Shown here: in pieces, positions 4,927 through 42,045 of the stretch
Position numbering within the stretch: position 1 is the first letter of the stretch
Layout: every line of letters starts with the position of its first letter
Origin: Bolinopsis microptera
Taxonomy: Eukaryota > Ctenophora > Tentaculata > Lobata > Bolinopsidae
Direction: 5' to 3'
NCBI RefSeq assembly: GCF_026151205.1
Contig: NC_087081.1
Location: 9,357,246-9,421,245, forward strand
DNA: 64,000 bases
Made by a program: the position numbers and the translations under genes
The notes under the pieces: generated by a model
Databases searched by the model: none
Told to the model about the DNA's origin: nothing
Seen by the model: the letters and a program-made list of their open reading frames with translations, nothing else

Positions 4927-5268
4927 TAATCAGTCATACTCATCATCACTGCAGACGTTGCAACCATATTCAAAAGAATCCATCACAAATCACAATCAAT
5001 ATCACATTAACCTTAAGAATAATAAGATTCATGGATCTGATTTCTATGAAATGGTGACTCAAATTTTTAATGAATATCCTTAAATAGTGTAAATAAGACT
5101 ACACGTCCGGGATTTTAAAACAAAAACTACCCCTTGACTCCATAATTCCTACTATACCATTATCACATACTTTCTTGGAGCCAACAAGTTTAATCCAACC
5201 AAATATAAATATCATATAAGTTATAATTGTATATCATAGCATGATATTCTTAAATGTAACGTTTTTCT
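4927..5268. other. spacer / probable 3' UTR side of minus-strand gene
   Basis: AT-rich, directly downstream (minus strand) of the stop codon of the 22-exon gene. It may hold its 3' UTR; no other feature seen. Confidence 0.35.
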
Positions 5269-8200
5269 CTAGAGTTTGGTTTTTCTGCAAGTTAAACAAG
5301 ATCCGTTCCCGAACGAGGAGAGACTGGAGTAACATCTCCTGTCCTCGTCCTCTTCGCCGTCTAGTAATCTGTACGGCAGTTCTTCTGATCGTGCTAACTC
5401 TGTCAAAACATCAAATTTTAATTATAGGCTGAATTACCTGGTAAACTTAGCTACGGGATTTTATACACTCAACTGCATTTTTTTAATCGTTATTAAATAA
5501 AAATCTCCCAACGACGTCATTGAAAATTGGGAAATACAAAGATTAAGTATAGTAGGGTATTTATGTAACCCTTGTGCCTTAACCGTGCCTTAACCGTGCC
5601 TTAACTGTGCTTTAACCGTGCCTTAACCGTGCGTTAACCGTGCTTTGCCACATTACTGAATTGCCGCCAAATCACCATATTCCCATAATTATCATATCAC
5701 ATGTGCTGGCTAGCAAGCCAAACGATCAGTAATTAATTATAATCCCCTAATTAGCTAATTACATGAATAGTTAACCTGTAATTACCAGATGGGCTGCTGT
5801 GAGATCGGCAAGAGTCGGCGGACTTACACCTCCTACGATCTGGGTACCGCTCTGAGTCTACACACAGACAATCTACTTCTAGTTTCCTGTGGTCACAAAT
5901 TATTCAATGAAATTTACTGCTGTTGAAGTTGAAGAACATAAAAACATTAATATAGATATCCTGGATCATCTGTGTGTCATTCTTATTGCTCATTCTCGTG
6001 TGAGTGAGGACATCTTCTCTGACAAAAAAACATGAAAAAGGAAATTAAATTAGTAACTTGATATTATGGAACCTTAATAAATAATACTACCATTTGTAGT
6101 TTTATAATTTATATCAAGCAAAAAGAGAAAATATTTGAGTGCATTTTGAGTTTTTTCTTTTTTAAAAATTTTAATTAATATTATTTGTCATATTTCTGAC
6201 GAATGTATGAGTTAAATCTACCTGATATTTGGTGCAGCACACTTCTAATTATATTGAAATAATACGATTTATAATTATATTATCTAATCCAAGTGAGACA
6301 TTTTCATTTGGAATATAATATCTTAAGATCTTAAAATAAATTTAACTTTGGAATATACTATACTATCTTAAATTTATTATTTAACTTGCCTTTGGAATAT
6401 ACTATACTATCTTAAATTTTACTTACCTTTGGAATATACTATACTGTCTTAAATTGAACTTACCTTTGGAATATACAAATTAGTTATCTTAAATTTAACT
6501 TACCTTTGGAATATAATATAATATGTTAAATTTAACTTACCTTTGGAATATAATATAATATGTTAAATTTAACTTACCTTTGGAATATACTATACTATCT
6601 TAAATTTAACTTACCTTTGCAATATACTTTAATATGTTAAATTTAACTTACCTTTGGAATATACTATACTTTCTTAAATTTAACTTACCTTTGGAATATA
6701 CTATACTATCTTAAATTTAACTTACCTTTGTAATATACTATACTATCTTAATTTAACTTACCTTTGGAATGTACTATACTATCTTAAATTTAACTTACCT
6801 TTGGAATATACTTTAATATGTTAAATTTAACTTACCTTTGGAATATACTATACTTTCTTAAATTTAACTTACCTTTGGAATATACTATACTATCTTAAAT
6901 TTAACTTACCTTTGTAATATACTATACTATCTTAATTTAACTTACCTTTGGAATGTACTATACTATCTTAAATTTAACTTACCTTTGGAATATACTATAC
7001 TATTTTAAATTTAACTTACCTTTGGAATGTACTATACTATCTTAAATTTAACTTACCTTTGCTGATCACCGCACTCTACCACTATCTTAGGAATGGGGAT
7101 GATAATGTAGTCCTCGTTGGAAGATTCCGACTTTTCAGAGTCTCTTCTGACTTGTTGTAGAATGCTGAATAAAAAACTTATATATATAAAGTCACAAAAT
7201 GTTTCTGAGTTTCAAGGTTCCAGCCCAACAAACCCGTGTGGGTATAAGCAAATACATCTTTTACATTAACAAAATAACAAAATCAAAAATCAAAAATAAA
7301 AGATACAACTAACCTCTCCAAACTCTCACATGACCCTGTCATCTGAGCTAGGTACAACTTGCACTCGCTCTCTGAGTTAAATGATACCATCTGAAACGAG
7401 GAGTGAATATTTAAGGGGAATTATTACAACTAATAACTATGTGTACAGTTGGAGATTTGACTAAAAAGTAGTATAGTAGTATGTCTGCTACACTATCAAT
7501 AATACAGTTGTTTAAACATTACATATTCTCCAGATACTATCTACTAAGAAACCACCACTAAGCTATCAGGAGGTTTTCTGAAATATTTAAACAGATCCGA
7601 CCCTAAGTAAACAAAACTAACCTCTTCTGCAGGTCTTCTGTTAATGTAAGCTACTATGTTTCTGTTGCTATGGAGACGGCCCCTATCAAATGTTAGTTCT
7701 CTTTTGTCTATCTCGATACCACCTTCTCTGAGAGATAAGATAAGTCACATGTATTGTTAGTTGTTAGTTGTTACTAGTGCAACTTTGAAACGCATAGTAG
7801 TTCTTGGATAGGCAGATTACAAAATGTTTTGGCCTTATAGTCAAATTACAGGAAACTTATTTTAACATAGAGATAAGGTTGAATAAAAGGAAACGGAGCT
7901 CATTTCAAGGAAATTTGAAATAAGTAGAAAGAGCTGAATCGATAAAATGGTTAATTAGAAGCGGATAATTATTTGGTGTAATACAGTATCTGCTGGAGAT
8001 GAATCGTATCCTCGTTTTCTTCTCCTTCCTCCACGCTTCTACGAGCTTCCTTATCAGGCACTAAAGACCGCATAAGATGGGAGCTGCTCTGTATTAGCTT
8101 CCTGACCTGATATCAGGAGATTTCATTAGTTTGACCTATTCTCAAACACAAGGAAATAACTTATATGCTAAGTTAAGGACAGAACTAAAAACGACACTAC

Positions 8201-11700: not shown

Positions 11701-14700
11701 TTTCATTTCCGTTTTCGTCCATCGTAGATTTAAGATATTCTGCTGTCTTCACTACCACTGAAGAAGACATTTCGTCCAGCTCAACCTCTGGTTCGTCTTC
11801 TGAGACCAAACTTTCATTAGATTCACCACTTTGGTCCTCCTCCAAGTTTACTTCAACTTCTGTTTCTTCTCTGGTTTCGCCAGTAATCTCTTCATGTACC
11901 GTAGCGTCATATACTGTAGAATCAGATTCGGAGGTTGGTAATTCCATCTCCAAGACATCAACATCATCCTTCAAAGCGTCTTCTTTTTCCTTCAATTCGT
12001 CTTCTTTTTCCTCCAGAGTCGCGTCCTTTTGATGATCCCCAATCTCCTCATCATTATCATGGTTCACAACCGTTATCTCGTCTTCCAACCCCGATTCAGA
12101 GCTATCAACTATCTCAGCTTGTGACTCCTCTGTAAATTCCTCCTTCACCCTCGTGCCCTCTGCTCCTCCCATCTCCTCCTCCCATCTCCTCCTCAACTTA
12201 TCAAAAGTAGGTAAATAGCCGCTAAAAAAAAAGCCATCCTCATCATGATGCTCCTGCTGCTCGGTGATAAGTTGGTCCTGTTGAATAGACTCCGATTGGC
12301 ACCTGAGGAACTTGGGATTACGGTTTGAGAGAGAATGTATCAGCAAAGACCACCCCAACAGCCATACAGTAGCGTAACGTTGCCTGTTGGGGCCCCCCCC
12401 CCCCCCCCCCCGGTGAAAATGCGCCCCCTTATTGGCGCCCCTCCCCCTTTTGGCGCACCTCCCTAAAATTGAATAAATTAGATGATTTTAGAGGATAAGC
12501 CGGTAAAATCTCTAAAAAAGTGTGTTTCTAGAGCAAAACGCGCAGTTTTGCTAGTACCTTAGTTAAGTTTTTCCAAATTGTCCCACATTCAAACAACGAT
12601 ATGGCGCCCCCTAAGGCCCCCCCCCCCCGCACAGCGGGGTCGGCGGGGCCCTTAGCTTCGTTACGCCATATCAAGCAAGAAATAGAGCTTAACCAGCGGG
12701 ATTGCAAAGCAAGAATAATGGAACTGAAAAGAAGGAAACCAGCAGTTCAAACTTAAAAACAGAGTTTTATTCTCATCAAATTTGTCAAATCCACCAAAAA
12801 GTCTCGCAGTACCTGTCAAGAGCGCAAACAAGAGGGGAGTCTCTGGAAGCTTTACCCAGTATTCCACACTGGTGGAGATCAGAGATCAGCTCTTGTTCAC
12901 TGCAAGGTAGACACTCTCTGCTTCCGTTACGAGGTTGGTAAGTGAACTCTGGGCATTGGACACAGTCCCACCCTCCTGGTACCGGCTGTTCGGATGATAA
13001 TATCAGTTTTATAGTGGTGCTTCTTACGTAGAGTTTACTAATCTTGGCGAACAAACAGTTCAAAAACCAATATTCTTATGGTCTGATTGACTAAGAATCA
13101 TCGTCCCCAACAACAACGGCATTTTTGTAATAATAATAATTTGAATGACAGAATGTAAGTAATACTAATAGTAATATTCATTAATTGATAATATTTTGAC
13201 GGTTTTACCTGGTGGAATCCTGCCGGACAGATATCACAGACTGCAGCTCCAAAAGCAGGTTGGTATGATCCAGCAGGGCAGTCCACACAATCGCTGCTTC
13301 CTTTACTTGGCTGCGAGGGTTTGCATCATGATTATTGATGACGGTAATTGAGTATTTGGCCATTCAGAGGACGTTATACGCTGGTGTACGCATGCCATTT
13401 GGCATATTGTTATACACCGCAGCTACTGTAGTATGCGAATGAGTCAGCAACTAGCATGTTTGCTGGCTAATTTGCATGTTTCAGTAAGTCTACATAAATT
13501 AGGGTTAATGATTATTGAAATAAGCCTGTTTTGATTTGCCGTACCATCCACGAGATCAGCCTTAGCTGATAGATTACACTAATTACAAGGATCACCTGGT
13601 AATTACACTAATTACAAGGATAACCTGGTAATAACATTAATTACCTGATATTGACCGGGATGACAGAGTGAGCAGGATCGTGCTTCTTTAACTTTACTAG
13701 AACCAGCATCACACGGTCTACATCTGTGTACAGAGCTCCCTGAAGATAATCGGGGTTGGGTTGTGTTGTAAAGTTGTAGCCCTGTTGAAGTGTAAAATGG
13801 GATTTAAGATTTGAGTGGCCGATGGTTCATGGTGGGAAGATAATGGATTGAGATGCGAAACTTGGGTAAAATAAAATTAGCAGATGGAAGACAGACGCTG
13901 AAGGAAAATGAGTTGAAAATGAGGGGGGGGGGGAGAGAGAAATAGTGAAGGCGGGAAAGTGGGTACCAGTAAAGAGGGGGGAGAGAAATAGTAAAGGCGG
14001 GAAAGTGGGTACCAGTAAAGAGGGGGGGAGAGAAATAGTAAAGGCGGGAAAGTGGTTATCAGTAAAGAGGGGGGGTGAGAGAAATAGTAAAGGCGGGAAA
14101 GTGGGTACCAGTAAAGAGGGGGGGGGGGGGAGAGAAATAGTAAAGGCGGGAAAGTGGGTACCAGTAAAGAGGGAACTGCAAAAACAGCAAAGGATATTTT
14201 AGTGGGAACTAGGTAGCGCTGGTCTCTAAACCCTACCTGTGACAAGACGATAAGCTATGTTGGATGTAAGTGTTACAATCTGCCAAAAAGGAGACAGTTT
14301 TTTACCACGTAGAGTGTTCAGCTCGTATCCTGAAACAAGTTTTAAGTTTTACAGCTGGTGATAATAGTAACTTCATCCAGGTTAATTGCACGATGAGAAT
14401 CAAAGACAAAGAGATTGTCGATCAAATCGGAAAACCTCATTCAACGAAAATATTGTAACTAATTTCTCAAAATATTTTCCTTAAATACCTTTCAAACTCC
14501 TTAAATACTCCTTAAAATACTCCTTAAATACTCCTTAAATACCTTGAGTGCACTGTCCCCGGTGATTGGGAAATGTTTTCTTAAAGTTCCTGATGTGGTC
14601 CACACCCAACGCTTTCCCATCTTGAGTCGTTACCACTGTAGAAAGTTAATTAGCAATTATAATTAGGTTGTTAGTCGTATCATTAGTAATTAGTTAGCAA

Positions 14701-17158
14701 TTAAAATTAGGTTGTTAGTCGTATCATTAGCAATTAGTTAACAATTATAATTGAGTTGTTAGTCGTATCATTAGCAATTAGTTAGCAATTCTAATTAGGT
14801 TGTTAGTCGTAACTCATATCATTAGCAATTAGTTAGCAATTATAATTAAGTTGTTAGTCTTATCATTTAAATTTGATACGACCAGAAGAGTAACTGGTCA
14901 GTTCATGGATAATCATATGATTGGTCGCTGTAAGGTTTACAAATATACTGCAGTGTCCAGTCACTTGGCTGTATAATAAATAGCTTTATTCCAGGCAGTA
15001 ATTAGTACGCTGTAAAGTCTCTAACTGAAGATATAACTTGATCCAATATATGACGTGCATGAAAACAACCGAAACGTGCCTTATTTTAACTGTACTTGTT
15101 TTCCAGATCAGATTGGAGACTCAAGGAACTGCTTACCATTTATCCAGAGAATTCCGTTGATCAAAAAGAGGAATGTGATAAACGCAAGAATTAGATCATC
15201 AAAAGAAATCTGAAAATTAAAAATTGTCATTAAATTCATATTCATGTAATTTTGGCAAATGATCTACAGCTCACGATTCATCCAATTCTGATAAATATAT
15301 AATTTGTTTACTGTTAGAAAATAACATGTTCTCTAAAAACTAACCTTGCGTTTGCCGACAGCTGGGTTACCATTCCTACAAATAGCAAGGAGTCGACCGT
15401 ACATGTTGTCATACAGTTTCCTACATCGAACAGAGAGTACAGGGGAGACTCCAACTACAAACGAGGTCACCTAGGTGGAGGGGGAGGGGGTTAATTAATT
15501 AAGTAGAACTGTTAGGGCTATAAAGGACATAATATAATATTCATATTGGGGACTAGTGACATTTAATAGTCAGATATTGGTAATCTGTTAAGGCGATACT
15601 GCGGACTGGTGATTGACAAGCGTTATTATAACGCGCCTATAATGCCGCCAACGCAGAGAAATGGGTGCCGCCAAATACCACCATCATATAAGCTAAAATA
15701 GCTACTAAAGTAGCATTACTTTTACTAAAATCAATAGCAACACTGCAAAATCTCTGTAGTCACCTATATAAATAACGCTCGATCAGTGGAGACCAGGAAT
15801 CGGATAAAATCAAAGCTTCACACACGCGAAAAGCAAACCAGGCCTATCTGAATACAACGATCAGCTGTACATCAACATAATTGCCAGAAAAGCTAACGAT
15901 ATCTATGCTAATTCAACAGAAGTGTACATTGATACCACACAGTTGGTCAGGCGGGCGGATCACTGGGCAGCTTCATTAATAAAGGTGGAAATTGAGTGGT
16001 GCCGTAGGTTACGTTAAGGTACCCCAAGGGGCTGCTAACAGCTGTATAAAGGGAAACTGAGGAAAACACCAAGCTTATAACATCTTAACATGGCCAATGT
16101 ACTGCATGGACATTATGGAATACATTGTAAGTAAAATGTAGCCTACTTTATATTAGCCCTGAGGTTATAGCCAAGAGGATTCCAGACGGACCCCCTGATC
16201 CCTACCTTGTCATGCAATTGGTACTGTGCTTATTAAACCTGCGTGAGTACGACGTCGTACTACTTTAATTAAATGTACGGTTCATGCACAGTGCACTGTA
16301 TTAGTATGTATAACGACACTAGTACTATAAGTATATTGCGAAATTGTGGCAGTATTATACTGCTATCGTGAAATTGTGCGGTAACCAATATGGGTCGGTA
16401 AATGAGTTGAGCCAATCATCAGTCATATGCTCAGATAGTACAACATGTACTATATACTTATAAAGGTACTCTCGCAAGCAAAGGGTAGGACTCAATTTCA
16501 AAATCGGATCCAGGCTTCTATAGAGTATGTAGACATCTACGGCATGACAATAATGATTGCTTTTAATAGTTGTATCGGTGAAATTGGTCTCAACACTCAG
16601 CCCTAGTAGCTGGCCCTGAGATTCCTAATTCCAATGCCTCCGACAGCGAACTATAAAACGTTTCGAGAATAGTATGTCCAGAATGAAACGAGAAAAACAT
16701 TCAGTTCTATGATAAATTTAAATAACGCTCAATCCGATTGCAACATTGGTTTTGATCCTAACAAACAGTCGCCTTACGTTATGTTGGTAGAAACGATGCC
16801 GATTTAGTAAACATACAACAGAACTATGATGATTATATCAGCTTAGCGATAACAAGAGCAGATTCAAGGACGATAATTACATAATTAACAACTTTAATTA
16901 CATAATTAACAACTTTAATTACGCAATTGACCAGCGTTATTGGTCCACTAATCTCAGCACGAACGTGGCGGCAAATAATCACAAGCGATTTGCAGTTGGA
17001 TTAGCATACCTGCAATTTATAAACAATTATAATTGCCATGATAATTTTGTTTATACCGTGCTATTAACAGTAAAATAATGCGATAATGTTGAACTCACAA
17101 GAGCGTTTGCTATCCTCCGAAACTTAACACGGTTGATAACATCCACTTCTCCCAACAT
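5269..17158 (-). CDS. 22-exon multi-pass membrane protein with ephrin-receptor-like repeats
   Basis: Exon model by splice consensus and phase: 17158-17099, 15470-15345, 15209-15137, 14635-14543, 13781-13645, 13310-13209, 12985-12856, 12302-10807, 10705-10581, 10436-10268, 10105-9996, 9847-9750, 9179-9080, 8727-8620, 8327-8217, 8106-7985, 7727-7622, 7390-7314, 7164-7057, 6018-5946, 5857-5830, 5399-5269. The start ATG has an in-frame TAG directly upstream. Predicted length is about 1,227 residues. Order: cytoplasmic N-terminus, membrane helix at about 67-86, cysteine-rich ephrin-receptor-like repeats 118-240, an acidic Asp/Glu/Ser-rich segment about 270-739, four clear membrane helices 785-905, possibly more near 945-965, then a charged cytoplasmic tail. 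Everything is in phase except one missing base at the nine-T run in exon 8. Weakest calls: donors of exons 15, 20 and 21. The architecture suggests a cell-surface receptor or channel, but I do not recognise a named family. Confidence 0.8.
5569..5645. repeat. ~11-bp tandem repeat (CCTTAACCGTG)n
   Basis: Seven copies with small variations, inside the last intron of the membrane-protein gene. Confidence 0.9.
6310..7056. repeat. 37-bp minisatellite carrying splice-donor copies
   Basis: About 18 tandem units of 37 bp. On the minus (transcribed) strand each unit contains AAAGGTAAGTTAAATTTAA, which is the same junction sequence as the authentic donor of exon 19 (CAAAG|GTAAGTTAAATTTAAG at 7057). The array therefore begins at the exon edge and repeats the 5' splice site through the intron. 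Some neighbouring pairs share variants (TTTAATATG against TATACTATC), showing recent block duplication. Confidence 0.95.
9080..10705 (-). CDS. membrane-helix exons (9-13) of the same gene
   Basis: Five exons (10705-10581, 10436-10268, 10105-9996, 9847-9750, 9179-9080). After an amphipathic segment ending HHGRRVF come four hydrophobic helices: LIIIPIALSILLSYCCLMGI, ASLLTDMVFLASFTLL, HVVAAVLLVLSIGFFTASL and TMMILTVSSVIAPLLFI. Exon 13 was found by asking for a phase 2-to-0 exon between 9750 and 8727; it is the only candidate I saw and its donor GAG|GTGGCC is weak. The helices plus the N-terminal anchor make a protein of at least five passes. Confidence 0.75.
9206..9606. repeat. dispersed repeat B, copy 1
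   Basis: Two tandem half-units, each with CCTTGACCGAAATxTxxCxGTTTT, then a GACCAATCAGTGAGGTC-like block, then AAGTCGCCATCxAGGTACTG. The same repeat occurs at 19085-19365 and 21098-21378, downstream of the duplicated two-exon genes. It lies in intron 12 of the membrane-protein gene. Class unknown. Confidence 0.7.
10453..10476. repeat. (TTAA)n microsatellite
   Basis: Short TTAA tetranucleotide run in the intron next to exon 10. Confidence 0.9.
10807..12302 (-). CDS. large acidic exon (8) with an internal frame break
   Basis: Exon 8 runs from an acceptor CCTCAG at 12303 to a donor AGAG|GTGTGT at 10807. Its main frame codes about 480 residues very rich in Glu, Asp, Ser and Val and is certainly coding: it stays open over 1.5 kb in an AT-rich region and ends in the phase that the next exon needs. 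The frame entered from exon 7 is a different one: it reads three NxS/T sites and a short hydrophobic stretch AFFLAAIYLLLI, then stops at TGA near 12187. A one-base gain in the nine-T run at 12224-12232, or -1 slippage there, joins the two frames. Confidence 0.75.
12367..12668. mobile_element. hAT-type MITE, copy 1 (degraded right end)
   Basis: Matches the complete copy at 52514-52802 almost throughout, starting CAGTAGCGTAACGTTGCC and ending CGTTACGCCA. The outermost CTG of the right end and a clean 8-bp duplication are missing, so the end is eroded. It fills more than half of the intron between exons 7 and 8. Two poly-C runs (12391-12410 and 12618-12630) may be length-uncertain in the assembly. 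Confidence 0.85.
12856..13781 (-). CDS. cysteine-rich ectodomain exons (5-7) of the membrane-protein gene
   Basis: Three exons (13781-13645, 13310-13209, 12985-12856) encode cysteine pairs in the GCC2/GCC3 (ephrin-receptor-like) pattern, for example CRPCDAGSSK, CSLCHPGQYQ, CVDCPAGSYQP, CDICPAGFHQ and CVQCPEFTYQP. Splice phases 1, 0, 0 and 1 match their neighbours. Such repeats occur in extracellular parts of receptors; here they lie after the first membrane helix and so would face outside if the N-terminus is cytoplasmic. Confidence 0.85.
13566..13644. repeat. ~33-bp tandem repeat starting at exon 5 donor
   Basis: On the minus strand the exon 5 junction CAG|GTAATTA is followed by two more units, each containing ATTACCAGGT (CAG|GTTATC and CAG|GTGATC). 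Small array of two to three units that again duplicates the donor. Confidence 0.8.
13929..14172. repeat. 44-bp GA-rich minisatellite
   Basis: Five to six units containing AAAGGCGGGAAAGTGGGTAC and a G-run of variable length, in intron 4. ORFs on both strands here are produced by the repeat. Confidence 0.95.
14462..14542. repeat. 12-bp tandem repeat starting at exon 4 donor
   Basis: Minus strand: exon 4 ends CTCAAG|GTATTTAAGGAG and the 12-13-bp unit GTATTTAAGGA recurs about five times directly after it. Each unit restores AAGG(AG)TATTT, resembling the donor. Confidence 0.85.
14641..14870. repeat. ~43-bp minisatellite abutting exon 4 acceptor
   Basis: Five units of GTTAGCAATTATAATTAGG plus GTTGTTAGTCGTATCATTA, beginning within ten bases of the exon 4 acceptor (14636) and extending into intron 3. 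Confidence 0.9.
15471..17098. other. intron 1 of the membrane-protein gene
   Basis: A 1.6-kb intron without further exons that I could recognise; a short 22-bp tandem (TAATTACATAATTAACAACT) occurs at about 16875-16925. Confidence 0.5.
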
Positions 17159-18494: not shown

Positions 18495-18534
18495 CATGGG
18501 GTTTTCTTAGAAGTTAGAAGTTTCATTAGTAAAA

Positions 18535-19082
18535 ATGAGGCTCGATCAATTTGTCGAACCCGTTGATATTCTTTCTGTTGGTCCACGTCCTCTTTTGATA
18601 AAGGATGTATTCAGTAATTTAGCATATCATATGAAAAAAGCATCTGCCGAAGGAACTCAATGGAAAGTCACTGATATTTATCGAGCTGTTGCTGTAGATA
18701 TTTTGACATTTGTTGGTGTTGTTCTTTCAGACCTTCAGCCCGCCGAATTAAAACGACGCAAAGTCTACATCGTTGAGTGAGTTTTTAATTTGCTGTTTTT
18801 AAATTGATTTCGCTTATAGTTATAATAGAGTGATAGGGATTTGTCTGACACATTTAATCAATTTTGTCTTCAAATTAATGTTTTGTATGATTTTAACCGT
18901 ATAAATACTTAAACAATCGCCCAAATGAGTAACCTGAAGAACCACCTTCCAGTCGGTTGAAGCGTATCGATGGGAAACGACGAAAATTGACGCCAAAGAA
19001 CAAACAGAAGATTAAGGATGACTTTAACAAGGCCCTACTCGAAGAGTTTCAGATCTTCCCGAAGGGACAGGGGCCAGTTTGA
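18535..19082 (+). CDS. two-exon gene for a 123-residue basic protein, copy 1
   Basis: Exon 1 is 18535-18776, ending GTTGA|GTGAGT; exon 2 is 18953-19082 after the acceptor CCTTCCAG, with stop TGA at 19080-19082. The intron is 176 bp. Exon 2 continues the frame and adds a basic segment (RLKRIDGKRRKLTPKNKQK) and an acidic-amphipathic end (DDFNKALLEEF). The conserved frame, phase and TATA box argue for a real gene. No signal peptide or membrane helix. I do not recognise the family; the basic centre would suit a nuclear or nucleic-acid-binding protein, which is inference. A possible AATAAA lies at 19448. An unspliced reading would give 81 residues. Confidence 0.75.
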
Positions 19083-19084
19083 TT

Positions 19085-19365
19085 CCTTTTCCGAAATTTC
19101 ACAGTTTTTACTGAATATTTGACTAGTGATCAATCAGTGAGGTCAGTGACTGACACAAGTCGCCGTCGTGGATGGCACAAGACACGGTTGAATATTAAGG
19201 TACTGAAAGTTAGTTTACCAAAGAAATATTTGATAAGCGGAAAATCGTCGGAACAGAAGGAGTCATTTGGATGATTTTTGGATGAATGCTTTTCTGTCGA
19301 AATTTCACAGTTTAGACTTTTGACTGCATATTTGACCGGTGACCAATCAGTGGCTAATTTTGAAT
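19085..19365. repeat. dispersed repeat B, copy 2
   Basis: Starts right after the stop codon of gene copy 1 with CCGAAATTTCACAGTTTTTACTG; shares the GACCAATCAGTG and AAGTCGCCxTC blocks with 9206-9606. Confidence 0.7.
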
Positions 19366-19770
19366 ACTTTAAATTCTCAATTGAACTTTTTAAATCTTTT
19401 GTTTCACTTCCTTTGTTAAATGTTAAGTAGAGAATGCAAGTACATCTAATAAAACAAGAACTGTGAAATGAGATAATAAAAATTTATTAAAAACCATTAA
19501 ACATAATCAAGAAAGCTCAATAAAAAAGTCAAAACAAAATGTAGTAAAATTCTTTGCGTAAAAGAATCAATATCCAGCTTTATTGAAAATAACCGGCAAA
19601 TTTGAAGTAAGGTTCCAAAGAAATAAAGGAAGCATCGATCAAATTAATGCCTAAATAGGACCAGTTACAAATCACAGCATTGATTTTATTTTTATCGCTG
19701 CCTTTTTGCAGGAGTATAATTTCGGCGTACAGAGCCTGTCCCGAGTTAAATAACTTACTGATTTAAGTAA

Positions 19771-20507: not shown

Positions 20508-20547
20508 CATGGGGTTTTCTTAGAAGTTAGAAGTTTCATTAGTAAAA

Positions 20548-21095
20548 ATGAGGCTCGATCAATTTGTCGAACCCGTTGATATTCTTTCTGTTGGTCCACG
20601 TCCTCTTTTGATAAAGGATGTATTCAGTAATTTAGCATATCATATGAAAAAAGCATCTGCCGAAGGAACTCAATGGAAAGTCACTGATATTTATCGAGCT
20701 GTTGCTGTAGATATTTTGACATTTGTTGGTGTTGTTCTTTCAGACCTTCAGCCCGCCGAATTAAAACGACGCAAAGTCTACATCGTTGAGTGAGTTTTTA
20801 ATTTGCTGTTTTTAAATTGATTTCGCTTATAGTTATAATAGAGTGATAGGGATTTGTCTGACACATTTAATCAATTTTGTCTTCAAATTAATGTTTTGTA
20901 TGATTTTAACCGTATAAATACTTAAACAATCGCCCAAATGAGTAACCTGAAGAACCACCTTCCAGTCGGTTGAAGCGTATCGATGGGAAACGACGAAAAT
21001 TGACGCCAAAGAACAAACAGAAGATTAAGGATGACTTTAACAAGGCCCTACTCGAAGAGTTTCAGATCTTCCCGAAGGGACAGGGGCCAGTTTGA
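20548..21095 (+). CDS. two-exon gene, copy 2
   Basis: Exon 1 20548-20789, exon 2 20966-21095. I saw no difference from copy 1 across both exons and the intron; the offset is a constant 2,013 bases from about 20437 to 21760, with one substitution at 21599 and one lost T near 21765 outside the coding part. Either a very recent tandem duplication, or two haplotypes placed in series by the assembler. Protein description as for copy 1. Confidence 0.65.
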
Positions 21096-21097
21096 TT

Positions 21098-21378
21098 CCT
21101 TTTCCGAAATTTCACAGTTTTTACTGAATATTTGACTAGTGATCAATCAGTGAGGTCAGTGACTGACACAAGTCGCCGTCGTGGATGGCACAAGACACGG
21201 TTGAATATTAAGGTACTGAAAGTTAGTTTACCAAAGAAATATTTGATAAGCGGAAAATCGTCGGAACAGAAGGAGTCATTTGGATGATTTTTGGATGAAT
21301 GCTTTTCTGTCGAAATTTCACAGTTTAGACTTTTGACTGCATATTTGACCGGTGACCAATCAGTGGCTAATTTTGAAT
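21098..21378. repeat. dispersed repeat B, copy 3
   Basis: Identical to the copy at 19085-19365 as part of the 2-kb duplication. Confidence 0.7.
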
Positions 21379-21784
21379 ACTTTAAATTCTCAATTGAACT
21401 TTTTAAATCTTTTGTTTCACTTCCTTTGTTAAATGTTAAGTAGAGAATGCAAGTACATCTAATAAAACAAGAACTGTGAAATGAGATAATAAAAATTTAT
21501 TAAAAACCATTAAACATAATCAAGAAAGCTCAATAAAAAAGTCAAAACAAAATGTAGTAAAATTCTTTGCGTAAAAGAATCAATATCCAGCTTTATTGAA
21601 CATAACCGGCAAATTTGAAGTAAGGTTCCAAAGAAATAAAGGAAGCATCGATCAAATTAATGCCTAAATAGGACCAGTTACAAATCACAGCATTGATTTT
21701 ATTTTTATCGCTGCCTTTTTGCAGGAGTATAATTTCGGCGTACAGAGCCTGTCCCGAGTTAAATAACTACTGATTTAAGTAATA

Positions 21785-22955: not shown

Positions 22956-25140
22956 AGGCCAGAATTGCCGGACACCAGGCAATTCCTAAGACCTAAGTAC
23001 ATGATTATAAGCCTTTTTTACATTTTAGGAAACGATCGCCCAAGTAAAAGGGAGATTTATTTAATAAGATGTCAATGCACATGTGTTCTTGAGGATGCTG
23101 CAACATTTTCAGCAAGCTCCGATATTGTATCGAATTGTGTAAACAAGTTTGCCAGTATTGGAACTGGAACTTCCAGTCTGGAAGGAGATGATTTACGACA
23201 TAAATGGAATTTTGTTGGTGCAGGCCTGCATTTGAATGATTAAGGAGACCTCACCAAGTGCGGGTAAGTAAAATCTTCACTGCAAAGCACAGCTCGACAT
23301 GTCTCGTGTGCAATGTGGGGTCCTGTTAAACTGCGTGCGTGTCACGTAACAAAAACTATACTTTCAGTCATTACAATTCATGAATACTGCACACTTGCGC
23401 TTATGATCTTTAAACCTTTGGTTCGCTTCATATCAGTTTTTACTTCACACAATACATGTAAATGTAATAGGCTACGCAGTGTATAAATGTGATACGTTAG
23501 CATAACACTGACGTTTGTTGAAGGAACTTGAAATAATGAAATGCCATGGGATATGCAGTATGCTCCTTCATAAACTGAGACATGACGGAGATCACAGTCT
23601 CCATCTAGTAAGGTATAATTCCGCCCTTATATAATTTGCAGCGGGCGAGATTGACATTTGAAGTGCTACAACTTACCTGTTAATTCGCTTTTATTCAACC
23701 TCTTCCTCGATATTTGACAGATTTGTATTAATATCTATCTGCCCAGTGCAAATGGTGCCTGCGTTATGGCGCCGATCTTTACCAGTTTTAATCAGAAATC
23801 TCAATTTTTCGTGCATTAACAGTGTGCGCAACATGTCCGCTTTTAATCGTTTGTGGCACGAGCGTTTGATGCAGGATTCATGCGATATTTAAAGCTTTAT
23901 AAATATATCTAAATAAGTCACAACTTCAACTCACAACTGTAAACTGGTTTGCCAATTATATTAAGCACCGAGCAGTATCGCGTTTGTCAATAAGAATTGT
24001 CATTTGAAAGCTCTTTGTGATAAACAGATGCTTTCATTTCGCATCGAAGCATGCTCTTAAAATTGTTCATTGTAGAAAACGTTTGTTTTCGATCAATCTT
24101 ATTAGTATTACTTGCAATCAGCAATGCTTGATTATATTCATAAATATACAAATAATTTTTTATTCTAAGATTGGCTAAAATATTGTCGGCTAAAATGTGG
24201 CCACAGATTAACAATTTCACACAATAAATATTAGCTGTGCTGATCATAATATTTTGAGCTCTCACATTTTAAATGAAATCGCTTAAATAAACATTGCAGG
24301 AGTTTATCACATAAAAACGCTCTCATAACAAAATGAATGCCAAAAATGACCGAATGTTTTGTTCGAATAACAGAAAAGATCAGCGGTTTATGATAATATA
24401 ATGCTAGTGCTGCCAATCAATTCAAGAAATTGTAACCTGTTTTAGTTTTTCGTATTTTTTCTGATCCATTTATTTAGTATTCGATTTAGTTTATCTATAA
24501 TCTTTAATTTCGGTGTTAATCTTATATTCGGAGGGTAGCTCGGTTTCTGATTCACTTATTGTATCGACGTCACTTTCTGTGCTTGCGTCTTCGGTATCCT
24601 GAAGTAATGCATTATCAGTTGAACAATTGTTGAACAAATGTCGAAGCTAGTTTTGACATTAGGCCGGGCCATAAATAAAATGGTCATTGTCAAAGCTATG
24701 AAGGTTGATTTGTCATTGTAATTCATGTCCCAATTTTTAGAGAATGTTTCGGTAACCCACTTTCAAACTTTATCCCAACCGTTTTTCTGTCTGAGGTCAA
24801 ATTAATATGGGCCAAAATATTTATTTGTTATTTAAAACTCAAAAGATATTAACTCACAATTTGTCGAATTATTTTTCTGGGATGGTAAGATTAAACACTG
24901 CTGAACACACTCTTAATTTCAATTTATTATTATTATCAAAATTTAACCCTACATTTCAAATATCTTGAACAGAAAAAGCTTTTTTCCAAAAAATCACTTA
25001 TTTGAACCCGCTAAATTTCTTTATTTGTGTTTTATCAAACTATTTAAGTTATTCCCAAATTCAAAACTGGCAGGTTTGAGATTTAATGCAGTTTCCATTT
25101 GCAGTGATGATCCAGATGTCTCAATTGAGACAGGTCCCAT
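22956..25140. other. long spacer, no confident gene
   Basis: An open 96-codon frame at 22953-23243 includes CQCTCVLEDAATFSASSD and could be a partial exon, but no splice partner was found. The rest is AT-rich with no recognisable ORF, RNA gene or repeat. Confidence 0.35.
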
Positions 25141-25149
25141 AATCCACAG

Positions 25150-25385
25150 ATATGATACCTCACTTACCTCCGTATAATACACAGATATAATATCTCACTT
25201 ACCTCCGTATAATCCACAGATATAACATCTCACTTACCTCCGTCCCATAATCCACAGATATAATATCTCACTTACCTCCATATAATCCACAACTATATTA
25301 TCTCACTTACCTCCGTATAATCCACAACTATATTATCTCACTTACCTCCGTATAATCCACAACTATATTATCTCACTTACCTCCG
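25150..25385. repeat. 35-bp minisatellite carrying splice-donor copies
   Basis: Seven units of about 35 bp. On the minus strand each contains CGGAGGTAAGTGAGATA, and the unit at 25376-25386 is the 3' edge of the last exon of the lysine-rich gene (TGACGGAG|GTAAGTGAG). A second gene therefore shows the same donor-anchored array as the membrane-protein gene. Confidence 0.93.
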
Positions 25386-27201
25386 TCATCGACTCATTGT
25401 GAGGCGAGTAATACTAATTTTACGGGTCCTCTGAGACACCTTTTACTCTTTTAGTGATTGCTACCAGTACCACTTTGACGCAATGAAGCTTGTAATTGTG
25501 TTTTATGATTTAAATTCTACAAACGTACTACAAGGGTAATGGACAATCGCGATGGAATGGCTTTCAGAATGTCTAGAGGTTTATGACGTCATAGCTAGAA
25601 CAAAAACGTCAAAGCTACGACATTGTCGACAATGTTAAGAGAAAATGAGGTCATGTCTGATAAAGGCATGGTCTCCAGGATCGTACGTAATGTAGATTCT
25701 TTAACCACTACAGGGTTTAGAAGTTAACTGATAAAAGCGATTTAAACTTTCAAGGAACAATATATGAACTAACTTCATATGAAGGATTGAGATTTTACAT
25801 TTGACGTTTGATTTTGTTGTTATGTTGTTCATAATTATTGGCTAAGTATTTGTGCATATGCTGGGTTTACTGGATCAGTCTCTTAAAATACAAATACATC
25901 TTCCGATTTTACTGACATTAATTTTGGCTTTCAACTCAATTAGAATTATATTGTTTCACATAAAATTCGGGGTGACCGAATTAACAACTCGATAACTTAT
26001 AAAATTAGGATTAATATTAGGAGCGATTTCGCTCAAAAGAATAGAACTCAACCGCCACTCATCATAAAATTAACTATAAACAGTGCATTGAATTTCTCTC
26101 ACCGCTATGGGTACCAACTTCATGGTACCATCAGGATTTGGCAGCAACACTGCTAGCGTACTAACGTTTAGACCCTCTGGAATCTCCACTAAAACCTGAA
26201 ATGGTCGTGGGTTTGAGGCCTACTCATGCCGTCAACTGCATTTATGGCTATTATCAATGATGTATCATAAGAGCATAAGGGAGGATGCAGATTGCAGTTT
26301 GCGAAAATAAACAACTGCACTCTGCAGTGTGGCCTGCCGTTGGTGTATGGAACTAATTATAAGAAAATGACATACCTGGTGAAAAGGGTAATAGTGAATT
26401 TATATACCAGGAATTAAATAAGTAAGTGCATATTATATACTTAATTATTTCATATTATGTACTTAGTTTTCAGAGCATATATTGTTATTAGTCTCACTTC
26501 TTCTTCAGATGGGGAATCAATAGCTTCCTGGTGACTTTTCTTCTTCCTGCTTGGTCGGACCTTCTCCCGCTTTTTCTCCTCCTGCTCAATGTTTTTATCT
26601 GTTTGTTCTTCATCTTTTCTTTTGACTTTATCTTTGTCCTTATCTTTATCTGAAAATTTGTATATAGCATCACCCATCACCTTCATCAGTTTTGAATTTC
26701 TAAGTAAATTTCATGCAAATAGTGTTTTGGACAAAACTTATTTTAACGGATTTTTAATCTCCGTTGGTTTAGTAACAATATCTGCTAAAGTAGTTCAAGG
26801 CTGGCGACTGTAATTGCGGTGTTCAATCAAGTTAATGGAACACAACGATCCATTTACAACTTGATGATGTCTAGAGCCATGAATGCAAGTGAACTATAAC
26901 TTTGAAAATTGTTACCTATCTTTAACTCTGTAACACGTTCAATGTTAATAGGCATGCTGTCAACTATGGAATTAATCGAATACCTTTTTTAACTACTTTA
27001 GCATCTCTTTTAGATTTTGATTTTCTGTGCTGCTTTGAGCTATCCGCATAATCGGCCCCTACAATTACTTCTTTTTTGCTTTTCTTCCCTTTACCAGGCA
27101 ATTCTTTTTTACTACTTTCATTGGACACCTCTTTTGTAGCTATCTCATCTTTGGACCCATTCTTACTGCGTCTTGGCGTTTTGTTTTTGTCTTTGGTCTC
27201 C
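25386..27201 (-). CDS. lysine-rich protein, last four coding exons
   Basis: Exons by phase: 27201-26984, 26649-26498, 26195-26103, 25430-25386 (stop TGA 25386-25388). The first two encode a highly charged, low-complexity Lys/Glu/Asp/Ser tract (for example KKKSHQEAIDSPSEEE), the third a hydrophobic folded-looking stretch VLVEIPEGLNVSTLAVLLP, and the last RTRKISITRLTMSR. Phases are 2, 1, 0, 0. The 5' exon(s) lie above 27201 and I could not find them. The composition suits a nuclear or RNA-associated protein; no family recognised. The GAG|GTAAGT after the stop implies that splicing continues in the 3' UTR. Confidence 0.7.
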
Positions 27202-35235: not shown

Positions 35236-36267
35236 TAAAGATTACTAGCATTTGGCTAACTAGCATTTAAATATTCGGCAGCATTTATTTCGACCATTTA
35301 TCGATATTGGAGAACGGTTATGTTAATATGGGAGCTGTCTTATAATTATATTGTAATAATCTACAAAACTGGAGAATTCAAACTATTATCAGAAAGCTTT
35401 CTTATATTCCGTTCAAATAAAGTCCGAAAAGGTAGTAAATTTAGATACATTAAATGAATGCCTTCGAACGTTCATTTTAATGTCCGTTCCCGTAAGGTGC
35501 AGTTTATATCTCCGCCAAAAGCATCACATTTTAGCATTAATGCGCGTAGTTTTCTCAACTATTTTCACAGTCGCGCCTTCCTGAAGTTACATTAAACAGC
35601 CACTTTTGCTTCCTAACATACCAGTTTATAGGAAGCAAAATATTATATATAAGTAAAGTGCAAGAAACCGAATTCGAACTTGGCACATTAATAGCATGGC
35701 CGAGACGATATTGTACATGGGCGATATTTAGTAGAGAATAAACCGGTACCTACGGTGTACCGGTACCGGTATACCTACGGGGTGATATTAGTACAATTTG
35801 GTTAGAACACCTCCTCCCGTATTATTGAGAATAAATTTACTTTTCCATACAATTGTGCACTTCAGTCGTATAGTAAACCGGCAGTAAAGCATGAAATGCT
35901 TTAATGATAAAAGATTCGTTTGTTATATAATAATGCTTTTTTTGAGTCGAGAAATACAAAATATGATGTTACAAAACACAACTTTAAAGAACGATCAAAA
36001 TTCTTACAAAGTTTTATTATAAAACTCTGTGACTGTTAAAAAGTATTAGGTAAATGATTCTTTTAATTCTGCCTTAATGGTCTGTAGCTTTTTCTCCTGT
36101 TTCCCATTTTGAGGAAGTCAGCCCTCTTCTTAGAAATTGTGCAGTAGAGTGTCGACAGGTCTGAGAACTCCAACGAATAAGGCATGATATCTTCTTCTAC
36201 AGTCTTTTCAAAAACTTGTTGACATTCTGAGTTATATTATTGTCATAACAACGAATAAAATTTATTA
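35236..36267. other. left flank of satellite
   Basis: Holds one arm (35499-35522) of a perfect 24-bp inverted repeat that recurs at 40099-40122, and a CCGTTCAAATAAAGTCCG block resembling the ends of the element at 42777-43612. No ORF. Confidence 0.5.
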
Positions 36268-38780
36268 GAGTTGAGCTATTCCTAGTCCTTGCTATGACAG
36301 TATTAAAACTACAATAGTTGTCACGAGATGTTTGATCTAGTGGCTAGAGTTGAGCTATTCCTAGTCCTTGTTATGACAGTATTAAAACTACAATAATTGT
36401 CACGAGATGTTTGATCTAGTGGCTAGAGTTGAGCTATTCCTAGTCCTTGCTATGAAAGTATTAAAACTACAATAGTTGTCACGAGAATCGAGATGTTTGA
36501 TCTAGTTATTAGAGTTGAGCTATTCCTAGTCCTTGTTATGACAGTATTAAAACTACAATAGTTGTCACGAGATGTTTGATCTAGTGGCTAGAGTTGAGCT
36601 ATTCCTAGTCCTTGCTATGACAGTATTAAAACTACAATAGTTGTCACGAGATGTTTGATCTAGTGGCTAGAGTTGAGCTATTCCTAGTCCTTATTGCTAT
36701 GACAGTATTAAAACTGTAATAATTGTCACGAGATGTTTGATCTAGTTATTAGAGTTGAGCTATTCCTAGTCCTTGTTATGACAGTATTAAAACTACAATA
36801 GTTGTCACGAGATGTTTGATCTAGTTATTAGAGTTGAGCTATTCCTAGTCCTTGTTATGACAGTATTAAAACTACAATAGTTGTCACGAGATGTTAGATC
36901 TAGTAGCTAGAGTTGAGCTATTCCTAGTCCTTGCTATGACAGTATTAAAACTACAATAATTGTCACGAGATGTTTGATCTAGTGGCTAGAGTTGAGCTAT
37001 TCCTAGTCCTTGCTATGACAGTATTAAAACTACAATAGTTGTCACGAGATGTTTGATCTAGTTATTAGAGTTGAGCTATTCCTAGTTCTTGCTATGACAG
37101 TATTAAAACTACAATAGTTGTCACGAGATGTTTGATCTAGTGGCTAGAGTTGAGCTATTCCTAGTCCTTGTTATGACAGTATTAAAACTACAATAGTTGT
37201 CACGAGATGTTTGATCTAGTTATTAGAGTTGAGCTATTCCTAGTCCTTGCTATGACAGTATTAAAACTACAATAGTTGTCACGAGATGTTTGATCTAGTG
37301 GCTAGAGTTGAGCTATTCCTAGTCCTATTGCTATGACAGTATTAAAACTGTAATAATTGTCACGAGATGTTTGATCTAGTTATTAGAGTTGAGCTATTCC
37401 TAGTCCTTGTTATGACAGTATTAAAACTACAATAGTTGTCACGAGATGTTTGATCTAGTTATTAGAGTTGAGCTATTCCTAGTCCTTGTTATGACAGTAT
37501 TAAAACTACAATAGTTGTCACGAGATGTTTGATCTAGTGGCTAGAGTTGAGCTATTCCTAGTTCTTGCTAGGACAGTATTAAAACTACAATAATTGTCAC
37601 GAGATGTTTGATCTAGTTATTAGAGTTGAGCTATTCCTAGTCCTTGTTATGACAGTATTAAAACTGTAATAATTGTCACGAGATGTTTGATCTAGTTATT
37701 AGAGTTGAGCTATTCCTAGTCCTTGCTATGACAGTATTAAAACTACAATAATTGTCACGAGATGTTTGATCTAGTGGCTAGAGTTGAGCTATTCCTAGTC
37801 CTTGCTATGACAGTATTAAAACTACAATAGTTGTCACGAGATGTTTGATCTAGTTATTAGAGTTGAGCTATTCCTAGTTCTTGCTATGACAGTATTAAAA
37901 CTACAATAGTTGTCACGAGATGTTTGATCTAGTGGCTAGAGTTGAGCTATTCCTAGTCCTTGTTATGACAGTATTAAAACTACAATAGTTGTCACGAGAT
38001 GTTTGATCTAGTTATTAGAGTTGAGCTATTCCTAGTCCTTGCTATGACAGTATTAAAACTACAATAGTTGTCACGAGATGTTTGATCTAGTGGCTAGAGT
38101 TGAGCTATTCCTAGTCCTTGCTATGACAGTATTAAAACTGTAATAATTGTCACGAGATGTTTGATCTAGTTATTAGAGTTGAGCTATTCCTAGTCCTTGT
38201 TATGACAGTATTAAAACTACAATAGTTGTCACGAGATGTTTGATCTAGTTATTAGAGTTGAGCTATTCCTAGTCCTTGTTATGACAGTATTAAAACTACA
38301 ATAGTTGTCACGAGATGTTTGATCTAGTGGCTAGAGTTGAGCTATTCCTAGTCCTTGCTATGACAGTATTAAAACTACAATAATTGTCACGAGATGTTTG
38401 ATCTAGTTATTAGAGTTGAGCTATTCCTAGTCCTTGTTATGACAGTATTAAAACTGTAATAATTGTCACGAGATGTTTGATCTAGTTATTAGAGTTGAGC
38501 TATTCCTAGTCCTTGCTATGACAGTATTAAAACTACAATAATTGTCACGAGATGTTTGATCTAGTTATTAGAGTTGAGCTATTCCTAGTCCTTGCTATGA
38601 CAGTATTAAAACTACAATAGTTGTCACGAGATGTTTGATCTAGTTATTAGAGTTGAGCTATTCCTAGTCCTTGTTATGACAGTATTAAAACTACAATAGT
38701 TGTCACGAGATGTTTGATCTAGTTATTAGAGTTGAGCTATTCCTAGTCCTTGTTATGACAGTATTAAAACCGCAATAGTT
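36268..38780 (+). repeat. 79-bp satellite, forward block (~32 units)
   Basis: Unit of 79 bp, containing GAGTTGAGCTATTCCTAGTC and TTGTCACGAGATGTTTGATC. Two end variants (CTAGTGGCTA and CTAGTTATTA) alternate. The rare variant CTGTAATAATTGTC recurs at 37349 and 38139, and at 37664 and 38454: exactly 790 bases, or ten units, giving a higher-order repeat. Confidence 0.97.
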
Positions 38781-39668
38781 CAAACATCTCGTGACAACTA
38801 TTGTAGTTTTAATACTGTCATAGCAAGGACTAGGAATAGCTCAACTCTAGCCACTAGATCAAACATCTCGTGACAACTATTGTAGTTTTAATACTGTCAT
38901 AGCAAGGACTAGGAATAGCTCAACTCTAATAACTAGATCAAACATCTCGTGACAATTATTGTAGTTTTAATACTGTCATAACAAGGACTAGGAATAGCTC
39001 AACTCTAGCCACTAGATCAAACATCTCGTGACAACTATTGTAGTTTTAATACTGTCATAGCAAGGACTAGGAATAGCTCAACTCTAGCCACTAGATCAAA
39101 CATCTCGTGACAACTATTGTAGTTTTAATACTGTCATAGCAAGGACTAGGAATAGCTCAACTCTAGCCACTAGATCAAACATCTCGTGACAATTATTGTA
39201 GTTTTAATACTGTCATAGCAAGGACTAGGAATAGCTCAACTCTAGCCACTAGATCAAACATCTCGTGACAATTATTACAGTTTTAATACTGTCATAACAA
39301 GGACTAGAATTAGCTCAACTCTAATAACTAGATCAAACATCTCGTGACAACTATTGTAGTTTTAATACTGTCATAACAAGGACTAGGAATAGCTCAACTC
39401 TAGCCACTAGATCAAACATCTCGTGACAACTATTGTAGTTTTAATACTGTCATAGCAAGGACTAGGAATAGCTCAACTCTAATAACTAGATCAAACATCT
39501 CGTGACAACTATTGTAGTTTTAATACTGTCATAGCAAGGACTAGGAATAGCTCAACTCTAATAACTAGATCAAACATCTCGTGACAATTATTACAGTTTT
39601 AATACTGTCATAACAAGGACTAGAATTAGCTCAACTCTAATAACTAGATCAAACATCTCGTGACAATC
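38781..39668 (-). repeat. 79-bp satellite, inverted block (~11 units)
   Basis: Same unit in reverse complement, starting at a switch point in mid-unit (38781). The two arms face each other with only about 15 bases of loop, giving potential hairpin arms of nearly 900 bp. Confidence 0.97.
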
Positions 39669-39682
39669 ATTATAATTTTCAT

Positions 39683-39930
39683 ACACAACTGATCGTACAG
39701 TTTAAAATGGAACAAAATAAGACAGAATAATTGATCAAATGTTAAAAAATAAGCTGATTTAGGAGAAGCAAATATTAGTTAAACTAATCTCTGTCACATA
39801 AAATACTGAAAATAAAGTTCACAACTGTGAACTCAAATGTATATAAAACACACTCACAATTAATCGTACAGTTTAAAATGGAACAAAATAAGACAGAATA
39901 ATTGATCAAATGTTTAAAAAATAAGCTGTT
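39683..39930. repeat. two ~72-bp direct repeats
   Basis: TCGTACAGTTTAAAATGGAA and the following 50 bases occur at about 39691 and 39863, about 172 bases apart, just outside the satellite. Confidence 0.85.
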
Positions 39931-41841: not shown

Positions 41842-42045
41842 ATACGAGATTACCAAGTTTAAATCCCACCTTTGCTAGTTTAAATCCCACCTTTGCTAGT
41901 TTGAATCCCACCTTCGCTAGTTTGAATCCCACCTTTGCAAGTTTAAATCCCACCTTTGCTAGTTTGAATCCCACCTTCGCTAGTTTGAATCCCACCTTTG
42001 CAAGTTTAAATCCCACCTTTGCTAATTTAAATCTCACCTTGAAAT
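41842..42045. repeat. 21-bp minisatellite
   Basis: About nine units of TAGTTTAAATCCCACCTTTGC. Being a multiple of three it yields an artefactual heptapeptide ORF (FKLAKVG)n on the minus strand. Confidence 0.95.

Follow-up and report, generated by a model that had tools for sequence, protein, structure and literature searches.

A 37-bp minisatellite of splice-donor copies at a predicted exon edge in the ctenophore Bolinopsis microptera

Introduction

In a 64,000-nucleotide stretch of the Bolinopsis microptera genome (hereafter the window; positions are counted from its first letter), a 37-bp tandem repeat begins at the predicted 3' end of a coding exon and carries copies of that exon's splice donor far into the intron. 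The locus raises the question of whether such repeated donors serve splicing or are a repeat that the gene tolerates, and whether 5' splice sites are favoured starting points for minisatellites in this animal. Our analysis favours a repeat that the gene tolerates as the most likely reading, over a novel device of splicing.

Results

Exons and intron around the array

The host gene lies on the minus strand, and the array is framed by the following features (a slash marks a splice junction).

7314..7390, minus strand: probable upstream coding exon; donor GAG/GTTAGT; frame runs on into 7164-7057; low gene-finder coding score
7057..7164, minus strand: probable coding exon; unit 1 starts with its final five bases, CAAAG; reads ILQQVRRDSEKSESSNEDYIIIPIPKIVVECGDQQ(R)
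6019..7056, minus strand: predicted phase-2 intron of 1038 nt that holds the 37-bp array; based on donor and acceptor scores and TACTAAT at 6055
about 6352..7061, minus strand: 19-unit minisatellite, last unit degenerate; consensus CAAAGGTAAGTTAAATTTAAGATAGTATAGTATATTC
5904..6018, minus strand: probable next exon, coding part (R)EDVLTHTRMSNKNDTQMIQDIYINVFMFFNFNSSKFH and stop; frame carried on from 7164-7057; splice-site scores

The three frames upstream of 7057 are open for 155, 9 and 19 nt, and there is a single acceptor; together these give the exon 7164-7057 with the 3' end GATCAGCAAAG/GTAAGT. The open frame is unbroken from 7390-7314 through 7164-7057 to 6018-5904. A sequence-only reading of this DNA had placed a GTAAGT donor at the exon edge, and by its score this donor is strong: AAG/GTAAGT at 7057 scores 8.39, a value reached by 48 of 39,583 GT sites (0.12%), the array's own copies included. 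The acceptor at 6019 scores 7.08, a value that places it among the highest 0.25% of AG sites. All donor and acceptor scores here were computed with generic animal weight tables. An ab initio gene-finder, trained on the sampled sequence and with coding scores too weak for a genome-wide donor set, picked 7390-7314 (coding score 0.1) and 7164-7057 (2.2) and did not pick 6018-5904. It picked the donors at 13645 and 14543 too, but the former in a different frame. Alternatively, 7164-7057 could be a terminal exon that ends at the in-frame TAA within GTAAGT, with no splicing at 7057. Judged from the sequence, this is less likely than splicing, because a strong acceptor, a branch-point match and an open frame all lie downstream.

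Pfam was searched with seven proteins, of which two ORF products matched Ephrin_rec_like (PF07699) and five had no match; the joined 99 residues that take in 6018-5904 gave no Pfam match. One joined stretch resembles TNFR_ELAPOR1_6th, below the curated cut-off, and on this weak match the host gene may be linked to ELAPOR1. Elsewhere in the window, identical ORF translations occur about 2 kb apart at 18511-18780 and 20524-20793, and likewise at 19130-19483 and 21143-21496, pointing to a local duplication of roughly 2 kb.

The 37-bp array starts across the predicted donor

Using TRF, the main array was called at 6379-7061 with period 37, 18.4 copies and a score of 1136, together with a 184-bp higher-order period. 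Counted by hand from 7061 on the minus strand, it has 19 units, spaced by 37 bp throughout the 18 gaps except for 36 twice and 40 once. CAAAG is intact in all 19 units and GTAAGT in 18, in agreement with the roughly 18 donor copies at 37-bp spacing that had been claimed for this intron. The claim that the exon boundary is itself the first unit also holds for the exon as predicted from its open frame and acceptor: unit 1 runs from exon position -5 to intron position +32 and so takes in the CAAAG exon end at 7057. The exonic match to the unit is thus five bases long, the AG among them being donor consensus.

Searching the whole genome (264.65 Mb, 232 contigs) with the main array, using a DNA search tool that skips simple repeats and common words, returned five matches, namely its own locus and four at 66-69% identity. 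With no second high-identity copy genome-wide, the array probably grew in place. An introner or other mobile intron element would have copies at many places, whereas this search, skipping common words, gave one high-identity match genome-wide, which tells strongly, if not conclusively, against such an element. RNA folding of the 201-nt piece 6900-7100 was at shuffle level (z 0.10), and no Rfam family was found within the 64-kb window.

Later donors would lead to a stop

At 7057, two exon bases and the G of the intron would form a codon that is followed directly by TAA. Translation through donors 2, 3, 4 and 18 ends in all four cases in CGDQQR followed by a stop, which lies 33, 70, 107 and 626 nt before the junction, respectively. 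As the stop lies before unit 2, the remaining later donors run into the same stop. By the general rules of nonsense-mediated decay in animals, transcripts from donors 3 and beyond would be likely targets.

The array could also be read as a substrate for recursive or dual-specific splicing, in which each AAAG/GTAAGT would serve first as an acceptor and then as a regenerated donor, so that the intron is removed stepwise. AG/GT is a dual-specific motif, and a tandem array of such sites is reported to be spliced in human UBC (PMC10809524). We nevertheless regard stepwise removal as very improbable, as the eight AGs scored, out of 18 sites and with the exon edge included, reach -1.9 to 3.4 as acceptors, against 7.1 at 6019.

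Smaller arrays in the window and a second gene

Three smaller arrays in the window had also been described as anchored at donors.

13573..13644, minus strand: 29-bp array, 2.5 copies (TRF), starts at intron +1; upstream exon 13739-13645
14478..14542, minus strand: 11-bp array, 6 copies (TRF), starts at intron +1 of probable exon 14635-14543
about 25139..25386, minus strand: 35-bp array of CGGAGGTAAGTGAG units (TRF), no coding exon seen ahead

This description stands for the array at 13644, whose donor is supported by a domain, and probably for that at 14542; ahead of the 25-kb array no coding exon was seen. Exon 13739-13645 matches Ephrin_rec_like with an E value of 0.02 alone and 1.1e-13 joined to the next exon (the next ORF alone, 1.7e-8); in the register of the array that follows, the later copies have CTT ahead of GTAATT, not the exon end. 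Exon 14635-14543 is 93 nt long within an open frame of 103 nt, with one acceptor (5.3) and a donor scoring 4.1. Upstream of the 25-kb array, the frames are open for 33, 13 and 5 nt, and no acceptor scores above the cut-off; a non-coding exon may lie there. The array itself (25384-25139) carries GGAGGTAAGT in 7 of 7 units, and 0 of 10 columns vary in its donor block, compared with 9 of 25 elsewhere (p 0.036).

Other repeats in the window were noted in passing. On the minus strand, a 44-bp, 4.9-copy array at 14646-14867 repeats the branch-point-like CTAAC and ACTAAC, and some 10 bases separate its end from a possible acceptor, CTACAG/TGGTAACG; splice-signal repeats may therefore sit at intron 3' ends too. 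Also on the minus strand, a pyrimidine-rich array with a 47-bp period (13927-14193) is followed, some 29 bases on, by a possible acceptor. A 79-bp satellite at 36262-39684 consists of two blocks in opposite orientation that meet at about 38778 (31.7 and 11.5 copies by TRF), forming a large inverted satellite. A further array, at 41856-42040, has GCAAAGGTGGGATTTAAACTA-like units of 21 bp; it lies beside a long CT/GA tract, starts with the donor-like AAG/GTGAGA and has one frame open throughout.

A second credible case was found outside the window, at locus L014, where a 55-bp array (5215-5572; 6.5 copies by TRF) follows exon 1 of a homeobox-type gene. The exon ahead of it reads MIATAHPFSITNILEGDSL and onward; its FSITNIL resembles an engrailed-homology motif, and a homeodomain-like WFQNRRAKCKK lies on the same strand at about 7625. 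The 37 residues of the exon gave no Pfam match. The first unit has AAG/GTAATT, and in the four later copies read (of TRF's 6.5 in total) the G at -1 or +1 is changed.

Unit variation and growth of the main array

Comparing the 19 units of the main array, we found that units 1, 3 and 8 are identical and that two blocks of five units differ at 1 position in 184.

6804..6987, minus strand: units 3-7, one of the two five-unit blocks of the 184-bp duplication
6620..6803, minus strand: units 8-12, the other of the two five-unit blocks

With a difference of 1 in 184, the five-unit block was probably copied recently. Unit distance to unit 1 grows away from the exon (Spearman 0.58, p 0.009), as does distance to the consensus (0.45, p 0.053). 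Inner units are alike, the last unit on the intron side is divergent, and the edge unit on the exon side equals units 3 and 8. With units 8-12 left out, 1 of 11 columns varies in CAAAGGTAAGT compared with 15 of 26 elsewhere (Fisher p 0.010); by block, the first 11 columns contain 1 variable column, the next nine 3 and the last 17 contain 12. Without the last unit, 0 of 11 columns vary in the donor block.

This pattern would be expected if a selected first unit were copied again and again, and selection on all units would give the same. The latter would apply if the array were a functional ladder of donors, its extra U1 sites being selected as decoys, as an aid to exon definition, or against premature cleavage and polyadenylation in an A+T-rich intron. 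There are 18 strong donors on the sense strand, and in both the main and the 25-kb array no part varies less than the donor block; this low variability counts somewhat for function and would be compatible with decoy, exon-definition or polyadenylation-shield roles, but does not require them. On the other side, the donors are changed in the L014 copies read, the polyadenylation-type signals of intron 6019-7056 come to one AATAAA and three ATTAAA, later donors would yield a stop, and lancelet minisatellites of similar build are reported to leave regular splicing alone. We therefore consider a functional ladder improbable.

The array is best read, and probably correctly so, as a tolerated minisatellite of the lancelet 'mirage' type, derived from a duplicated 5' splice-site segment and enlarged through unequal exchange or slippage. 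Seen directly in the sequence are its anatomy, the open frame, two inner units identical to the edge unit, and the 184-bp block copy. Further points in favour of this reading are the abundance of minisatellites in the genome, the matching anatomy of lancelet mirages and the second credible case at L014. The proposed course of events would begin with the tandem duplication of a short segment that reaches from exon -5 to intron +32, across the 5' splice site, from which the array would expand through slippage or unequal exchange. It would be tolerated, since the first donor would still set the same exon and mRNA. The selected first unit would then act as a master that is copied repeatedly, while the copies decay away from the exon, which is the simplest account of why the donor motif is kept in later units. 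On this reading, the first donor would be the one in use, the number of units would differ among individuals, and the array would be close to neutral.

Several observations speak against this reading. With an exonic match of five bases, the array may have originated inside the intron and abut the exon by coincidence. The 25-kb array keeps its donor block with no visible exon as master, which fits selection or chance, and the changed donor G in later L014 copies indicates that copies are not always kept. Exon 6018-5904, moreover, is predicted from open frame and splice-site scores and was passed over by the gene-finder.

Are donors favoured as array edges?

The sequence-only reading had proposed a general process that places arrays at donors. 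Donor motifs at array edges were counted in 28 pieces, each 10 kb long and taken from beyond the window: 20 from the window's chromosome, C10 (two within 30 kb of the window), and three plus five from C1, C2 and C11. The genome is minisatellite-rich, with 250 arrays of period 9 or more in the 280 kb sampled. Left out of the array counts were periods under 9, overlapping TRF rows and five loci (L001-L005) fetched by similarity to the main array. The window was left out of the permuted-motif edge test and of the repeat-finder-free count, counted apart in the C10, 60-array and acceptor tests, and included in one further array count.

With an edge width of 8 bp, chosen after the window had been seen, thresholds of 4, 5 and 6 gave 37, 20 and 10 donor motifs at the 5' edges of arrays, compared with 22.0, 8.9 and 3.8 expected, a 1.7- to 2.6-fold enrichment in the 280 kb. 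At 3' edges there were 19, 8 and 3. At no threshold did any of 150 rate-matched permuted motifs match the 5'-edge ratio; the 5'-minus-3' difference was reached by 0, 1 and 3 of them. The 60 arrays from the other chromosomes alone show a weak excess (7 vs 5.5, 5 vs 2.7 and 4 vs 1.1). Poisson p values were not relied on, as they are low for some permuted motifs too (among the 60 arrays, one reached 4.2e-5). For acceptors beyond the 3' edges of arrays the rise is mild at most, 8 vs 3.6 in one bin. The edge donor recurs one period on in 12 of 37 cases at 5' edges and in 4 of 19 at 3' edges, suggesting that many edge donors belong to arrays that start beside the donor, not across it.

The enrichment bears on chance abutment, by which the main array would be an intron-born minisatellite whose edge happens to fall at the donor, the five-base match being in part donor consensus. 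Against it are the 5'-edge excess unmatched by permuted motifs, and three coincidences in the host gene where 0.23 would be expected, a post hoc figure that assumes 20 donors. In its favour, a count that uses no repeat finder gave no clear asymmetry between donors in first and last units (32:35, 22:15 and 11:5 at three thresholds), and at the strictest threshold, 7, the C10 sample has no 5'-edge excess (1 vs 1.4 expected).

Genome-wide motif counts bear on both sides. We counted each motif occurring three times with gaps of 12-42, a count in which matches overlap and a few long arrays dominate. The donor motif AGGTAAGT has 1380 matches, above six of seven controls, which tells against chance abutment; the one-base donor mutant AGGTAACT exceeds it with 2560, which tells for it. 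The other controls include AGATGAGT (182, its reverse 373) and TAGGAAGT (203, its reverse 192). Distinct C1 arrays counted by eye number 5 for AGGTAAGT (two share a unit), 6 for AGGTAACT, 3 for AGATGAGT and 1 for TAGGAAGT. As the mutant lies above the donor motif and the C1 arrays are few, a genome-wide excess of donor-bearing arrays does not follow. Weighing these results, we think it unlikely that the main array abuts its exon by chance.

A hundredfold excess of donor arrays, suggested by the 1380 matches against 12 for the reversed motif, is not relied on, because the other controls behave differently towards their own reverses: AGGTAACT gives 2560 vs 1, AGATGAGT 182 vs 373 and TAGGAAGT 203 vs 192. 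Counts of donor-bearing repeats thus depend strongly on the control motif chosen.

That donors are favoured as minisatellite edges in this genome is therefore suggestive, on mixed results: the proposal of a general process is supported by the edge test, gains little from the repeat-finder-free count, and has mixed support from the motif counts. The stronger proposition, that 5' splice sites in this animal would be preferred minisatellite starts, with the selected first donor as a master that supplies the intron with new functional donors and with introns lengthening from their 5' ends under its cover, is doubtful; it would, as part of the same doubtful reading, have the extra donors retained in the main array and weakened or lost in L014. 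The edge test gives a first tally of array starts near donors in this genome. Should the enrichment be borne out in an annotated genome, it would link intron lengthening to a specific, testable mutational route.

Discussion

Comparison with known systems

The main array is a clear many-unit example of a repeat kind already described, the 'mirage' minisatellites of lancelets. Mirages are described in Adh3 and the globins BflGb6/BflGb9, and also in TnC and PGBD5 (PMC3902484), with unit lengths of 10-72 bp in Adh3 and 150-160 bp in the globins; many units carry AG/GT, and RT-PCR is reported to show that regular splicing continues. The main array is like them in three respects. The tandem unit spans an exon-intron boundary, although the exonic match is short here and the exon is predicted from sequence; its 37 bp fall within the described range; and a splice signal is present in many units, here GTAAGT in 18 of 19. 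Unlike the mirages, the main array has an exonic part of five bases, an edge unit that is the same as inner units, and 19 units, compared with 6 and 3 in the two BflGb6 haplotypes. Homogenisation of mirages is described as acting within the cluster with the boundaries excluded; here inner units are alike and the last unit is divergent, but the exon-side edge unit equals units 3 and 8. The 1-in-184 block copy, seen in one assembly, hints at recent change in the main array.

A human case is IFI6, in which a minisatellite lies at a donor and its units are able to serve as donors (Turri et al. 1995, as cited in PMC4526556). Two downstream units are reported there to be used, giving three mRNAs, whereas in the main array the use of later donors would give a stop. 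In the Rogers model of intron gain, a tandem duplication likewise carries splice signals, but the main array locus has no new intron; an existing intron is lengthened instead. Rogers and Bendich 2025 (PMC11782384) report that every one of 213 introns has direct repeats, 4-30 bp long. Like the start of our array, these are at or near intron-exon borders; they are presented as direct repeats left by intron insertion, whereas ours is a tandem array inside an intron. The ctenophore array thus adds a many-unit minisatellite spanning a splice site to the known examples.
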